Source: Candidatus Nealsonbacteria bacterium DGGOD1a
GTDB lineage: Bacteria > Patescibacteriota > Minisyncoccia > Minisyncoccales > UBA5738
Length of the DNA: 42,951 nt
NCBI GenBank assembly: GCA_022530585.1
Contig: CP092821.1
Span: 970,367 to 1,013,317, forward strand
Direction: 5' to 3'
The notes beneath the pieces are model-generated. The model saw nothing but the letters and a program-made list of their open reading frames with translations, had not been told where the DNA came from and ran no database searches. The position numbers and the translations under genes were made by a program. This document shows, piece by piece, positions 9,379-38,508 of this stretch. Position 1 is the stretch's first letter. The number at the start of each line of letters is the position of its first letter.

Positions 9379-9406
9379 ATGCGGGCGAATAATCATTCGC
9401 CCCTAC
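9379..9406. repeat. REP-like palindrome, family A copy 1
   Basis: GGGCGAAT and ATTCGCCC form a perfect 8-bp stem with a four-base loop, flanked by ATGC and CTAC. The 28-base unit is identical to 31293-31320 inside elp3. It overlaps the RAYT stop codon, which is the TAG formed by the terminal CTA. Confidence 0.85.
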
Positions 9407-9924
9407 GGGATACGGGAATACAATTCGTCAATTTCCCAATTTAACGGGTTATTGATGATATATTCACGCACGCGATCCAAATCATCGTCATTGCGAATAA
9501 TATGTTCATAATAATTCCTTTGCCAAATTGGTTTTCCCAACAATTTGGTAACGCCAATTTTATATCCTCTGATTATCGCCCCCACGGTTTTCGATGTCCC
9601 CGCATTTTGCATTTGTAGGGGCGAATGATTATTCGCCCGTTCCCGTTTCCATTCCCGATTTTGAATAATTATAATCCCATGGAAATGATTCGGCATCACC
9701 ACGAATTCATCCAAAATAACAAACGGATAATGTTTTGGAATTTCGTACCAACAATTATTTACGATTTCCCCCGCCTTATTCAATTCCATCTTTGCATCCG
9801 CGATGCTCCCAAACAAACATTGCCTGTTTTGCGCGCAAACGGTGACAAAATACGCCCCGTCTTGCGAATAATCATAACCCTTAACCCGAATTGTTCTCCG
9901 ATGATGAATTTCAGAATCGTACAT
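9403..9924 (-). CDS. REP-associated tyrosine transposase (RAYT, IS200/Y1-type HUH)
   Basis: A 173-residue Y1-HUH single-strand DNA transposase, of the type that moves or maintains REP palindromes as a domesticated IS200-like enzyme. The N-terminus HHRRTIRVKGYDYSQDGAYFVTVCAQNR is the family hallmark. The HUH metal motif is MPNHFHG (His80, His82), and the likely catalytic tyrosine lies in NYYEHIIRN (about 138-139). Residues 96-104 (RANNHSPLQ) are encoded by a REP palindrome, and a second copy supplies the stop codon, so the gene is decorated by its own presumed substrate. It starts two bases after the phosphoribosyltransferase stop, probably co-transcribed. Confidence 0.9.
   Translation of the reverse strand: MYDSEIHHRRTIRVKGYDYSQDGAYFVTVCAQNRQCLFGSIADAKMELNKAGEIVNNCWYEIPKHYPFVILDEFVVMPNHFHGIIIIQNREWKRERANNHSPLQMQNAGTSKTVGAIIRGYKIGVTKLLGKPIWQRNYYEHIIRNDDDLDRVREYIINNPLNWEIDELYSRIP
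9615..9639. repeat. REP-like palindrome, family A copy 2 (inside RAYT)
   Basis: This is a reverse-complement copy of the unit at 9379-9406 (GTAGGGGCGAATGATTATTC then GCCCG), about 210 bases away in opposite orientation. It is translated in frame within the RAYT gene. Confidence 0.85.
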
Positions 9925-11723: not shown

Positions 11724-11773
11724 TCGCCCGTATTGGCATTTAAATGCGGGCGAAAACATGGTTTCGCCCCTAC
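11704..11773. repeat. Head-to-head REP pair, family A copies 3 and 4
   Basis: The two palindromes, 11704-11730 and 11744-11773, face each other with 13 bases between them, like a bacterial interspersed mosaic element. The first supplies the stop codon of pap2, and the second supplies the TAG stop of the convergent EndoQ-like gene. The second has the same AAAACATGGTTT centre as 31246-31275. The paired hairpins could also end transcription from both sides, although no long T tract is present. Confidence 0.8.
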
Positions 11774-12993
11774 AATACAGGATGCGAACGGGCACGAACG
11801 GATACATGGCCAAAAACTCCATCGTAACCGGCGACAAGTTCGACCTTGCCTTCCCGAGCATCGACAATGCCTTGGGCGATCTCCGGCGTTGTCGCGCTTT
11901 CAAGATCGGAAACGGTCGGACCAAGCAGAACCGAAAACTCCGAACCGAACGCTTTGACCAGCTTCGCGTATTCGGCTTTAACCGCGGCATTCGCAACCAT
12001 AACGCCCAAAACATCGGCGATTATCTCCTGCAACGGCACCAAGTTTTTGTAAGGTATCGCGCCTGCCGGTTTGTATCCCTCGGACTCTGTCGCCAATTCT
12101 TGGATACGGCTCAAAACTCCGATTGTCAGCGGCCGGTTGCATTTTGGACAAAGACCGTTTGTTTTCATCGACTCCCGGGGCGTCAACGACATACCGCAAG
12201 ACCGATGGCCGTCCAAATGATATTTCCCCTCCTCGGGAAAAAATTCAATCGTGTATAAAAATTTTTTGGCGTCTTTTTCTTTTATGGCTTTCATTATTTC
12301 AAAATAGTCCGGCGCGCAGTCAAAAATATTCACCTCCCTTCCGATTTTTTCCGGCGAATGCGCGTCGGAATTCGACAACAAACAAACATTCCGTCCGTCC
12401 GGAATCCGCCAAAGCATTGCCGGATCCGCGGACAATCCGGTCTCGATGGCGTAAATATATTTCGCGTGATCGCCAAAACATTCTTCCAGCGAATCGAACC
12501 CGGATTTGGACCCGAAAACGCCAAACCACGGCGTCATCGCGTGCGCCGGGATCACCATACAATCCGGCGACGCGTCCAAAACCATTCTAGCCAGTTCCCG
12601 CGCGTCCAATCCAAGTATCGGACGGCCGTCCGCCGTCAAATTGCCGACCTTGGCCAATCTTGAATTGATGGTTTCGACAACTTCAAACGACGGCGCGAAA
12701 ATCACAATGTGCACCTTGCGAACCCGATTGCCTTTGGAATAGATACAGCTGATTTCCGCGGTTAACAAAAAACGCGTGCCGCTCTTTGAATTTTTTAACG
12801 CGAAAAGACCCCGCTCCGCGTGGTCCAACAGTTCCTGTAATTCGGCAAACCACGCCGGATGGGTAAAATCGCCCGTACCCATCACTTTTATTCCCTTGAC
12901 TCTGGCCCATTGGTCAAGCGAAACGATATTCATCCGAGGCGAAGTGGCGCGCGAATAATGCGAATGAATGTGCAAATCCGCGGCAAAACGCAT
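11770..12993 (-). CDS. Endonuclease Q-like PHP-domain DNA repair nuclease
   Basis: EndoQ nicks DNA 5' of deaminated bases (uracil, hypoxanthine, xanthine) and abasic sites, and is known from Thermococcales and a few bacterial lineages. The 407-residue protein begins with the PHP metal motif DLHIHSHYSRA (Asp6, His8, His10) and carries MGTGDFTHPAWF, TAEISCIY, IPAHAMTPWFGVFGS and LLSNSDAHSPEKIGRE in the EndoQ order. A four-Cys zinc element follows (CGMSL, then CPKC about 15 residues on), then a C-terminal domain with LVPLQEIIADVLG. This architecture fits EndoQ better than DNA-polymerase-associated PHP proteins. The stop codon comes from a REP palindrome. The MgtC gene upstream is one base away, so they are probably co-transcribed. 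Confidence 0.8.
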   Translation of the reverse strand: MRFAADLHIHSHYSRATSPRMNIVSLDQWARVKGIKVMGTGDFTHPAWFAELQELLDHAERGLFALKNSKSGTRFLLTAEISCIYSKGNRVRKVHIVIFAPSFEVVETINSRLAKVGNLTADGRPILGLDARELARMVLDASPDCMVIPAHAMTPWFGVFGSKSGFDSLEECFGDHAKYIYAIETGLSADPAMLWRIPDGRNVCLLSNSDAHSPEKIGREVNIFDCAPDYFEIMKAIKEKDAKKFLYTIEFFPEEGKYHLDGHRSCGMSLTPRESMKTNGLCPKCNRPLTIGVLSRIQELATESEGYKPAGAIPYKNLVPLQEIIADVLGVMVANAAVKAEYAKLVKAFGSEFSVLLGPTVSDLESATTPEIAQGIVDAREGKVELVAGYDGVFGHVSVRARSHPVL

Positions 12994-29864: not shown

Positions 29865-31583
29865 ATGGAAAACTCAATGGCAAAAATCATCGCCGAAAAG
29901 CTTGTCGAAGCCGATCCGCAAACCAAAACGCAACTGGAAGCGTTAAAGCGCGAGATTGCCAAGGAATTAAAAATTCCCTGCCCAAACAACATTTGGCTCC
30001 TATCCGCGCTTTCAGAGGGTCTAACCCTCTGTATCAGAGGGTTAGACCATCTGAAAATCAACCGCTTGAGAAATTTGTTGCGGGTGAGGCCGGTGCGATC
30101 GCTTTCGGGGATTGTTAATGTTTCGGTTTTGACAAAACCCTATCCTTGCCCGGGCAGCTGCCTTTACTGCCCCAACGAGCCGGGTTTTCCCAAAAGCTAT
30201 CTTTCCGGAGAGCCGGCGGCCGAGCGCGCCAAACTTTTAAAGTTCAATCCCCATACCCAAGTGAAAAAACGGCTGGAAAATCTGGCGGCCGAAGGACACA
30301 GCATAGATAAAATCGAATTGCGGGTCATTGGCGGCACCTGGAGCTTTTATCCCAAAAACTATCAAGATAAATTCGTCGCCTCTTGTTTTGCCGCCTGCAA
30401 TGCTTTGAGCATTGCGAAAAATCCGCAATGCTCAAAGCATTGCGAAAGAACAAAATCATTGGAACGCGAGCAAAAGAAAAACGAAACCGCCAAATGCCGG
30501 ATCGTGGGAATTTCGGTGGAAACCCGGCCGGATTATATCAACGAGAAAGAAATCATTCAATTAAGAAAACTGGGGGTAACGCGCGTGGAACTGGGCATCC
30601 AAAGCATCTATGACGATGTGCTGGAACTCAACAATCGCGGCCATAAAATCGACGCGGCCGTCCGGGCGACAAAATTATTAAAAAACGCCGGCTTTAAAAT
30701 TTCCTACCAAATAATGCTCAATCTCTATGGCTCGTCGCCGGCGCGCGATCTGGCAATGGCAAAAGAATTATTCGCCAACCCGGATTTCTGCCCCGACCTG
30801 CTGAAAATTTATCCGTGCGCCGTCCTGCCGGAAGCGCCGCTTTATGAAATTTATCAACAAGGAAAATACCGGCCGTATTCCGACAAAAAATTGATTGATG
30901 TGGTCAAAGAAATCAAAAAGATCACGCCGCCGTGGGTGCGTATTGAACGAATCATCCGCGACATCCCCTCTCCGCGCATCACCGCCGGCGCCAAAGGCAT
31001 TTCCAATCTCCGCCAGATCATCGCCGCCGATATGGAAAAAGAAAAATGGCGATGCCGGTGCATCCGGTGCCGCGAGATTAAAGGAGAATATGACCCAAAA
31101 GAAAAAATTGCATTGGTTCGGCGCGATTATCAGGCGTCAAACGGCACGGAAATTTTTTTAAGTTTTGAGAATGAATCAAAAACAAAATTATTCAGCTTGT
31201 TGCGGTTAAGAATAACCAACGATGGTTCAAATCTAATCACGGGCAACACGGGCGAAAACATGGTTTCGCCCCTACGAATCGAAAACGATACAATGCGGGC
31301 GAATAATCATTCGCCCCTACAAAATACGGTGGCAATCGTAAGGGAAATTCACACCTATGGCCTGCAAACCGCGATTGACCAAAAATCAATTTCCGCCCAA
31401 CACACCGGCTTGGGGAAAAAATTGATCAAAGAGGCGGAAAAAATCGTGCGCGAAGAATCCGGCGCAAAAAAAATTGCCGCCATTTCCGGCATCGGCGCCC
31501 GCGCCTACTGGCGCAAAAACGGGTATAAATTAAAAAATACTTATATGACAAAAAAAATGCGCGAACGAATTCGCGCCTGCTAG
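29865..31583 (+). CDS. elp3: Elp3-family tRNA uridine(34) carboxymethyl-modifying enzyme
   Basis: Elp3 combines a radical SAM domain with a GNAT-like domain to build cm5U at the tRNA wobble position; single-subunit versions occur in archaea and some bacteria. The 572 residues include the cluster motif KPYPCPGSCLYCPNE (Cys95, Cys99, Cys102), GISVETRPDYI, VTRVELGIQSIYDDVL, KIYPCAVLPEAPLYE and the Cys-rich WRCRCIRCREI. The C-terminal acetyltransferase part has QHTGLGKKLIKEAEKIV and ISGIGARAYWRKNGY. Four palindromic repeats lie inside the frame and are translated (residues about 49-64, 178-193, 460-470 and 476-485), all in variable linkers. This is a strong identification; whether the repeat-bearing protein is fully active is unknown. 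Confidence 0.93.
   Translation: MENSMAKIIAEKLVEADPQTKTQLEALKREIAKELKIPCPNNIWLLSALSEGLTLCIRGLDHLKINRLRNLLRVRPVRSLSGIVNVSVLTKPYPCPGSCLYCPNEPGFPKSYLSGEPAAERAKLLKFNPHTQVKKRLENLAAEGHSIDKIELRVIGGTWSFYPKNYQDKFVASCFAACNALSIAKNPQCSKHCERTKSLEREQKKNETAKCRIVGISVETRPDYINEKEIIQLRKLGVTRVELGIQSIYDDVLELNNRGHKIDAAVRATKLLKNAGFKISYQIMLNLYGSSPARDLAMAKELFANPDFCPDLLKIYPCAVLPEAPLYEIYQQGKYRPYSDKKLIDVVKEIKKITPPWVRIERIIRDIPSPRITAGAKGISNLRQIIAADMEKEKWRCRCIRCREIKGEYDPKEKIALVRRDYQASNGTEIFLSFENESKTKLFSLLRLRITNDGSNLITGNTGENMVSPLRIENDTMRANNHSPLQNTVAIVREIHTYGLQTAIDQKSISAQHTGLGKKLIKEAEKIVREESGAKKIAAISGIGARAYWRKNGYKLKNTYMTKKMRERIRAC
30010..30056. repeat. Family B palindrome inside elp3
   Basis: TTTCAGA, GGTCTAACCCTCTG and their complements surround a four-base loop TATC. 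It shares the GGGTCTAACCC core with 13468-13531, 32810-32838 and 41546-41678. It is translated as SALSEGLTLCIRGLDHLK, in the linker before LLRVRPVRSLSG. Confidence 0.85.
30397..30443. repeat. 20-bp perfect inverted repeat inside elp3
   Basis: The arms 30397-30416 and 30424-30443 are exact reverse complements with a seven-base loop. Each arm is itself nearly palindromic (GCAATGC..GCATTGC). It is translated as NALSIAKNPQCSKHCE, a variable linker in the family. Confidence 0.9.
31246..31320. repeat. Two direct REP-like palindromes inside elp3, family A copies 5 and 6
   Basis: 31246-31275 matches the copy at 11744-11773, and 31293-31320 is identical to 9379-9406 at the RAYT stop. Both have the same orientation and are translated as NTGENMVSPL and MRANNHSPLQ. 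They sit in the linker just before the acetyltransferase-like tail. Confidence 0.9.
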
Positions 31584-32809: not shown

Positions 32810-32838
32810 AATGAACAAGGGTTAGACCCTTGTTCATT
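32810..32838. repeat. Family B palindrome at the metK 3' end
   Basis: AATGAACAAGGGT and ACCCTTGTTCATT flank TAG, giving an almost perfect 29-bp palindrome. The metK TGA stop is inside it. Seven T residues follow on the plus strand, so it could terminate plus-strand transcripts; on the minus side the T tract is absent. Confidence 0.8.
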
Positions 32839-37089: not shown

Positions 37090-38508
37090 CTATTTGTTGG
37101 CCAGGGGGAAGAAGACAAAGAAACGGGAGCCCATTCTTTCAATGCTTTCCAGCATAATGTCGCCGCCCATTTTGCGCGCCATTTCCCGCGACATCCACAA
37201 ACCCAAACCGGTGCCGGGAATTCCGGAATTATCCTCGGTTTTCACGCGGTAGAACTGTTCGAACAAACGCTTCTGGCCTTCGGCGGAAATCCCGAAACCC
37301 GTGTCCTGCACCGTGACCACGCAGCGTTTCTTGGCCCGCTCGGTTTTCACGGAAACTATCACTTTGCCCGCGGGCGTGTATTTAACCGAATTTTCAACCA
37401 GATTGACAATTATCCGTTTAAAACAAACCGGATTGACATTGATCATAATCACCGGATTGGCCGGTTGGGTATCGCCCAGCATAGCAACCGGATTTTCGCT
37501 TTCAAATGTCAGCGCCAAGCCCTTATCTTCGGCTTTTTGTTTTATCCCGTCAACAATTTCCTTAACAACTTCCGCGACAACAATTTTTTCGGGCTTGAAA
37601 TCGGTTCTCCCCTGCTGAAGATGCGAAACCTCGAGAATATCGGCCATCAGGTCGTTTAAATTTTTGATTGATATGGAAACGCGCTCGATATATTGTTTTT
37701 GATCGTCGGTGATTACCGCCGCCAATTCATCTTTCAATGCCTCGATATAAGCCATAATGACTGTAACCGGACTGCGAAGCTCATGGGTGGCCATACGGAT
37801 AAAATTATCCTTGGCGACAATCTGTTCTTGCGACTCTTTGGCCAAAACAACATACCTAAACAACCGCGTGTGCTGAAAAACCAGAAATAAGCTGATCAAA
37901 ACAATCACCGCCAGCAACAAATAGGATTGCCAGACCGCGATATTGATCGAATTATCAACGCTTTCAAACGATGTGTCGATGGAAATCAGCGCGTAAACTT
38001 CCTGCGCGTTCTCGTCAATAAAGGGCTGAATAATTCTCCAGCTCCTTTTATTGTTTTCTTTTATCCACCCGTGGATTTCGGTGCCGTTCGACCACGAATA
38101 AGCCACCAAACCTTCGCCGTTCAGCGAAATATCGGTGCTCACCACTTTTCCGACATTGCCGTTATTCTGCGCCGCGATCACTTTATAGTCTTTACCCTCG
38201 CGGATAATCACTCTTAAATTTTCGAATCCTTTGTTTTCTTCCGCGAAATTGCCAATCGTTTCCTGCAACGCCGCGACATTTTGCGCGCCTTTCGCGGGAA
38301 AATCCGGCAAAAGCAAGGAAGCGGCTCTGTCTTTTAACGCCGCCGCTTGCGTCTGGATATTGTTTTCGAGGACCGACTGAAACGATTGAATGGTAAAAAA
38401 AGTGTAGACATACAACGCGAACGGCAATAAAACGATCAAGGACAAAGAATACAAAATCGCCGGATTTTGTTTAATGAAGTAAAGCGCGTTTTTAATAAAT
38501 TCTTTCAT
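37090..38508 (-). CDS. Membrane sensor histidine kinase
   Basis: A 472-residue two-component sensor. TM1 is at about 19-40 and TM2 at about 193-211, with an extracytoplasmic sensor loop of about 150 residues between them. The HisKA phosphorylation site is RMATHELRSPVTV (His242). The ATPase domain shows the N box NLVENSVKYTP, the G1 box DTGFGISAEGQ, the F box LFEQFYR and the G2 box GTGLGLWMSREMARKMGG. No response regulator lies in the window. The gene starts one base after the stop of the large surface protein upstream, so the two are co-translated and the kinase may sense the state of that surface layer. This is inference from position. Confidence 0.95.
   Translation of the reverse strand: MKEFIKNALYFIKQNPAILYSLSLIVLLPFALYVYTFFTIQSFQSVLENNIQTQAAALKDRAASLLLPDFPAKGAQNVAALQETIGNFAEENKGFENLRVIIREGKDYKVIAAQNNGNVGKVVSTDISLNGEGLVAYSWSNGTEIHGWIKENNKRSWRIIQPFIDENAQEVYALISIDTSFESVDNSINIAVWQSYLLLAVIVLISLFLVFQHTRLFRYVVLAKESQEQIVAKDNFIRMATHELRSPVTVIMAYIEALKDELAAVITDDQKQYIERVSISIKNLNDLMADILEVSHLQQGRTDFKPEKIVVAEVVKEIVDGIKQKAEDKGLALTFESENPVAMLGDTQPANPVIMINVNPVCFKRIIVNLVENSVKYTPAGKVIVSVKTERAKKRCVVTVQDTGFGISAEGQKRLFEQFYRVKTEDNSGIPGTGLGLWMSREMARKMGGDIMLESIERMGSRFFVFFPLANK

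Follow-up and report, generated by a model that had tools for sequence, protein, structure and literature searches.

Palindromes of three RAYT-associated families within the elp3 reading frame of Candidatus Nealsonbacteria bacterium DGGOD1a

The elp3 gene and its in-frame palindromes

Elp3, a radical SAM/GNAT tRNA-modifying enzyme, is encoded at 29865-31583 on the + strand of the window, by which is meant the whole stretch of 42,951 nucleotides analysed here from the DGGOD1a genome (G000). The open frame of 572 amino acids is recognised as Elp3 by profile search (TIGR01211, E 1.5e-156) and matches Pfam Radical_SAM and Radical_SAM_C. Between this gene and that of the congener G001, dN is 0.145 and dS 0.891, and the ratio of about 0.16 points to purifying selection on the gene. 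The original prediction held that four palindromic repeats are translated in frame within elp3. The four palindromes are real and the frame is open throughout, but each of two of them is made up of two 19-nt units in inverted orientation, so that the gene holds six hairpin units of three families (a B pair, a C pair, A1 and A2), all in frame. The two pairs were found by a mechanical search for inverted repeats and the hairpin units were read from the sequence; palindromes are given below without strand.

The family B pair occupies 30010-30056 (about residues 49-64, SEGLTLCIRGLDHLK), with arms of 22 nt at 30010-30031 and 30035-30056 that are 95% complementary. Its unit, CAGAGGGTTAGACCCTCTG, is a 19-nt hairpin with 8-bp stems and a 3-nt loop, and it is read in elp3 as SEGLTL and RGLDxLK. 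The usual spacing of B pairs (21) would give a TGA in the SEGLTL frame; in elp3 the spacer has an extra base and gives TGT instead, and as one intergenic pair of G001 shares the longer spacing, this is not unique to elp3. The family C pair at 30397-30443 (about residues 178-193, CNALSIAKNPQCSKHC) has arms of 20 nt at 30397-30416 and 30424-30443 with 100% complementarity, which bears out the perfect 20-bp inverted repeat noted earlier and places it in a family paired at six genomic sites; the unit, GCAATGCTCAAAGCATTGC, has the same 19-nt length, 8-bp stems and 3-nt loop. The two remaining repeats are GTAG-type REPs, subtype A1 at 31249-31275 (CGGGCGAAAACATGGTTTCGCCCCTAC, GENMVSPL frame) and subtype A2 at 31295-31320 (GCGGGCGAATAATCATTCGCCCCTAC, MRANNHSPL frame). 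The sequence TTCGCCCCTAC occurs in elp3 at 31265 and 31310, and both REPs start with GTAG when read on the opposite strand, an end that the B and C units lack.

Dispersed families and their links to RAYT genes

That one gene has caught three repeat families is upheld by the genome, in which each family is dispersed far above the counts of control patterns. Across 1,159,797 bases, the B core AGGGTTAGACCNT has 80 matches with at most one mismatch, as against 7 for the reversed control, and the stricter B1 unit has 13 with at most two mismatches against 0. The search for the C unit returned 16 rows (control 0), including 12 exact copies at 6 sites, and TTCGCCCCTAC has 15 copies (control 0). In this genome C behaves as a doublet element, all six of its exact sites being paired in the manner of REPIN-style inverted doublets of set spacing. 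Family B is mixed: three of the nine B1 sites with at most one mismatch are paired in G000, and G001 shows both pairs and singles. The 3-nt hairpin loops of the elp3 C copy are inverted relative to those of the C pairs at 399318, 400138 and 843721. Elsewhere in the window, a B-like intergenic palindrome of the AACAAGGGTTAGACCCTTGTT subtype lies at 32810-32838, and an A1 REP at 11747-11773 supplies, with its GTAG end, the TAG stop of the ORF at 11770-12993 (-).

Copies of all three families flank genes for RAYTs (REP-associated tyrosine transposases). The window itself carries one at 9403-9924 (-, 173 aa), the probable mobiliser of family A; its scores lie under the curated cut-offs (NF047646, E 2.1e-17, 63.4 bits against 80; Pfam Y1_Tnp, 21.6 bits against 23), and it is not among the 16 Y1_Tnp matches in G000. 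An A2 copy at 9383-9406 overlaps its 3' end and another, at 9615-9638, lies in its frame, where it encodes RANNHSPL, the same peptide as in elp3. Open frames measure 151-174 aa in nine of the 16 matches and 231-272 aa in seven, which we take for RAYTs. When 11 stretches of G000, nine of them around Y1 genes, were scanned for hairpins, the RAYT at 399657 proved to have C pairs on either side and the RAYT at 325233 to have a B subtype (AACAAGGG...) around it, the subtype of the window's B-like palindrome; other palindromes surround the Y1 genes at 309205, 910145, 422798 and 499717. The scan found no stem of 10 around the Y1 gene at 37360, where the AAGGTTAGACCTT core does match. In G001, B1 pairs stand on both sides of a Y1 RAYT of 245 aa; the B1 cluster of G000 has no RAYT beside it among the Y1_Tnp matches listed. 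The earlier assignment of the last two repeats to RAYT-type REPs was therefore sound for those two and too narrow in being confined to them, as B and C are likewise dispersed, multi-copy short palindromes with copies flanking RAYT (Y1) genes.

Family B palindromes also form the 3' ends of several genes (RAYT, reverse transcriptases), giving a SEGLTL tail and a stop (L206 1560-2297 and 435-1520; L012 1926-2645). The loci L012 1556-2645 (G000:C1 near 32.5 kb) and L206 435-1520 (G001 contig 41) pair an RVT_1 reverse transcriptase with a bAvd-like accessory gene, an arrangement known from diversity-generating retroelements. The RVT_1 locus holds a (GA)n tract of 13 units in G000, with a split frame, and of 11 units in G001, with an open one, which may reflect either a phase-variable retroelement or a simple frameshift.

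Other genes with in-frame copies, which the original prediction had thought worth seeking, exist in both G000 and G001. In G000, three of the nine B1 sites (at most one mismatch) lie within long ORFs, namely elp3 and two paralogous large ORFs that may represent one event copied. One of the six C pairs is inside an ORF (elp3) and another lies, by eye, just upstream of a LepA-like start. Of the 15 A units, four lie within genes, three in number: elp3 has two of these units, the RAYT gene one, and the last falls in the C-terminal tail of an ogt-like protein. All other ORFs that span A or B copies were judged spurious by eye. A DegT/PseC-type aminotransferase of G001 has an in-frame B pair near its N terminus, and the true start of a further G001 ORF spanning B (L224) is probably downstream of the repeat. 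The two paralogous ORFs read B as QRVRPSE and the aminotransferase reads it as QRVRPSE and SEGLTL. Since B is thus read in three frames in different genes, no peptide is conserved for it, and a conserved REP-encoded peptide is ruled out.

The same observation separates the elp3 repeats from the Rickettsia palindromic elements (RPEs) proposed at the outset as their model. According to the sections of PMC10969869 drawn on here, RPEs too are palindromes translated in frame in unrelated genes; they are however about 150 bp long and carry a conserved peptide, whereas the elp3 inserts measure 26-47 nt, are RAYT-linked and are read in several frames.

Empty sites in relatives and the placement of the inserts

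The history of the inserts could be followed in a codon alignment with two congeners (G001 and G002) and two other members of the family (G003 and G004), all of which have Elp3, at 67-78% protein identity. G001 is judged, from identical linker sequences, to be the same species as Patescibacteria group bacterium UBA6102 (L099) or one very near it. At the first site the segment is absent in G002-G004; G001 has a single B unit, the right one, of 24 nt or eight codons, and G000 has the pair. At the second, no C is found in elp3 of G001-G004, and G000 is eight codons (24 nt) longer than G001 and G002; as the C pair measures 47 nt, flanking sequence would have been lost or converted. At the third, G002, G003 and G004 have no A unit, G001 has one (A2) and G000 two (A1 and A2); the loop of the G001 copy is inverted against most A2 copies. 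The spread of the families across the genomes agrees with this occupancy: B1 numbers 13 in G000, 25 in G001, 1 in G002 and 0 in G003 and G004, A2 numbers 5 in G000 and 7 in G001 with none in the other three, and exact C copies occur in G000 only.

Where a relative lacks a palindrome it lacks the segment too, which argues that the segments are insertions. The opposite view, that they are ancestral linkers palindromic by chance, has next to no probability left: the segments are missing in relatives, they belong to multi-copy families, and relatives with the same protein segments and no palindromic DNA were looked for in G001-G004 and not found. An alignment with relatives had been expected to reveal insertions with flanking duplications. 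Empty sites were indeed found; neither a target duplication nor a junction footprint could be seen, at an identity of 67-78% that could let a duplication be missed. Insertion of the IS200/IS605 type is not known to leave a target duplication.

The alignment bears equally on where the palindromes came from. At the first site G000 is only one codon (3 nt) longer than G001, and its B left arm stands where G001 keeps flanking sequence resembling that of G002. Because the arm replaces this flank instead of adding to it, the second B arm of G000 would have arisen locally, a single unit becoming a pair in place. The left arm is moreover the exact reverse complement of the G001 right unit, with TTTC at the edge common to both, and the first letters of the C arm, TGCAATG, are already present at the empty C site of G001. 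It could be argued from this that all the palindromes were made or perfected in place, by template switching at quasi-palindromes or gene conversion, and not brought by RAYTs. We consider this unlikely as a general account, plausible as it is for pair formation, since identical B, C and A sequences lie at many other sites and, relative to G002-G004, G001 has its single B unit in a gap of whole codons; it does not serve for first arrival.

An AlphaFold model of Elp3, built with 58 of the 82 distinct elp3 sequences, has a mean pLDDT of 86.9 and superposes on the solved Elp3 structure 6ia8 with Z 48.5 and rmsd 1.8 over 413 aligned residues. Ten-residue blocks with pLDDT below 70 start at residues 51, 71, 181, 191, 451, 461, 471, 481, 501 and 571, and the insert sites lie in or adjoin such blocks (58 at residues 51-60, 57 and 69 at 181-200, 38-64 at 451-490). 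The inserts, first described as lying in linkers between conserved motifs, fall in loops of low confidence within a model that is well predicted elsewhere. The loops are predicted to be disordered and, from low confidence and position, would lie on the protein surface.

Palindromes in elp3 extend beyond this family. The best 80 of 544 related loci include the species of G001, G003 and G004 and leave 77 other elp3 genes of Patescibacteria. In the 82 distinct genes, 19 hairpins have 11 or more paired stem bases, as against 1, 7 and 4 in three codon-shuffled sets, and most species have none. Sixteen remain when G000 and L099 are set aside; six of these fall in the three linkers defined in G000 (9.5% of bases, p 0.0026) and ten in low-confidence blocks (10 of 58 blocks, p 6.7e-5). 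They cluster at residues 186-193 (four), 412 (three), 478-481 (two) and 506-508 (four), with three elsewhere. Unrelated palindromes appear, from these positions, to recur in the same Elp3 loops across the 77 genes, the insertion event itself being left undemonstrated for many, as only 7 of the 19 hairpins lie mostly in columns gapped in most sequences. Two of the hairpins in the second-site loop belong to multi-copy GTAG families, with 13 copies in the L140 genome and 7 in the L164 genome against 0 for the controls; by coordinates, the elp3 copies are among them. In six other genomes with elp3 hairpins, Y1_Tnp genes are present in four and absent in two. The elp3 linkers of L163, L132, L105, L148 and L165 encode long peptides resembling translated repeats (for example SREGGNPV...DSRLRGND in L163), most of them below the hairpin threshold.

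A general excess of hairpins in elp3 was considered and set aside, elp3 not being enriched over flanking ORFs at loose settings (1.32 against 1.09 hairpins per 10 kb). With perfect stems of 12 and GC of at least 35%, the counts were 9 in 128.8 kb of elp3 sequence and, for the flanking ORFs, 2 in 202.7 kb (p 0.0047). Over six settings p was 0.57 (the loosest, perfect stems of 10), 0.042, 0.034, 0.0047, 0.017 and 0.0013, with thresholds chosen after seeing the data and only the stricter ones separating the two. We are less sure of an excess of elp3 over other genes, to which these figures point weakly.

Tolerated insertion and its meaning

Taken together, the observations very probably describe RAYT-family palindromes that inserted in elp3, survived only at harmless positions and in harmless frames, and are neutral when translated. 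Three families of REP-like palindromes would each have inserted into the gene in this lineage, presumably moved by RAYTs. Copies that landed elsewhere in elp3, shifted the frame or brought a stop would have abolished Elp3 function and disappeared, and the survivors would be those in disordered loops and open frames, translated as apparently neutral peptide inserts. The earlier suggestion of insertion into coding DNA and tolerance as peptides is thus supported in outcome, by the open frame and the signs of purifying selection, and stays putative at the level of enzyme activity.

Tolerance explains the inserts better than function and is preferred, since B is read in three frames and has no conserved peptide. 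It is very unlikely that the inserts are selected, their peptides or mRNA hairpins tuning Elp3 activity or expression. Such selection would fit the recurrence of hairpins in the same loops of unrelated Patescibacteria, among them a loop near residues 498-514, which we take to be the acetyl-CoA loop and whose Dehalococcoides mccartyi counterpart (residues 390-407) is replaced by GSGSG in structure 5l7l. The sequences, frames and peptides differ each time, however, most species do without a hairpin, and tolerance of loops predicts the same positions. Only slightly less doubtful is the idea that in Patescibacteria translated palindromes land preferentially, and with consequences, in the loops of Elp3, where repeated REP capture alters the working of the enzyme. 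Were it true, capture in the interdomain loop and the acetyl-CoA-site loop would mean that a phylum of reduced genomes draws new loop features from mobile palindromes.

REPs lying in frame inside genes have been described before, in other bacteria. In the sections drawn on here, Di Nocera et al., 2013 (PMC3733652) describe intragenic REPs and their dimers and raise neutrality in linkers or loops; their GTAG REPs are, like the elp3 repeats, RAYT-linked, wholly within ORFs, often dimers and sometimes present twice per gene. The elp3 case differs in its three families, its congeners with zero, one and two copies, and the repeated appearance of palindromes, across a phylum, at the same loops of a single protein. 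The parts of Bertels and Rainey, 2011 (PMC3116915) used here argue that inverted doublets, or REPINs, are the mobile unit; these too are tied to a specific RAYT, while the elp3 families have units of about 19 nt, spacers of 2-9 nt, no GTAG in B and C, and some coding copies. TIRtrons, treated in section 16 of PMC3733652, are Y1 genes flanked by non-GTAG repeats, some multi-copy, as B and C are; the sections drawn on do not mention in-frame coding copies of such TIR families. Cleavage of single-stranded REP DNA by TnpA-REP is described in the portion of PMC8266576 drawn on. Within the open-licence literature, no publication on palindromes in elp3 of Patescibacteria was found by title or abstract opening.

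What is new here is a record whose successive steps can be read with unusual clarity. In-frame REP insertion is now seen in the streamlined Patescibacteria as well, and one conserved enzyme lays out the series from none to one unit to two. The loops of one protein across a phylum amount to a natural experiment in insertion tolerance, and elp3 both preserves a legible history of selfish DNA accommodated within a protein and offers a testable case for deciding between the spread of REP pairs by transposition and their growth through template switching on the spot.
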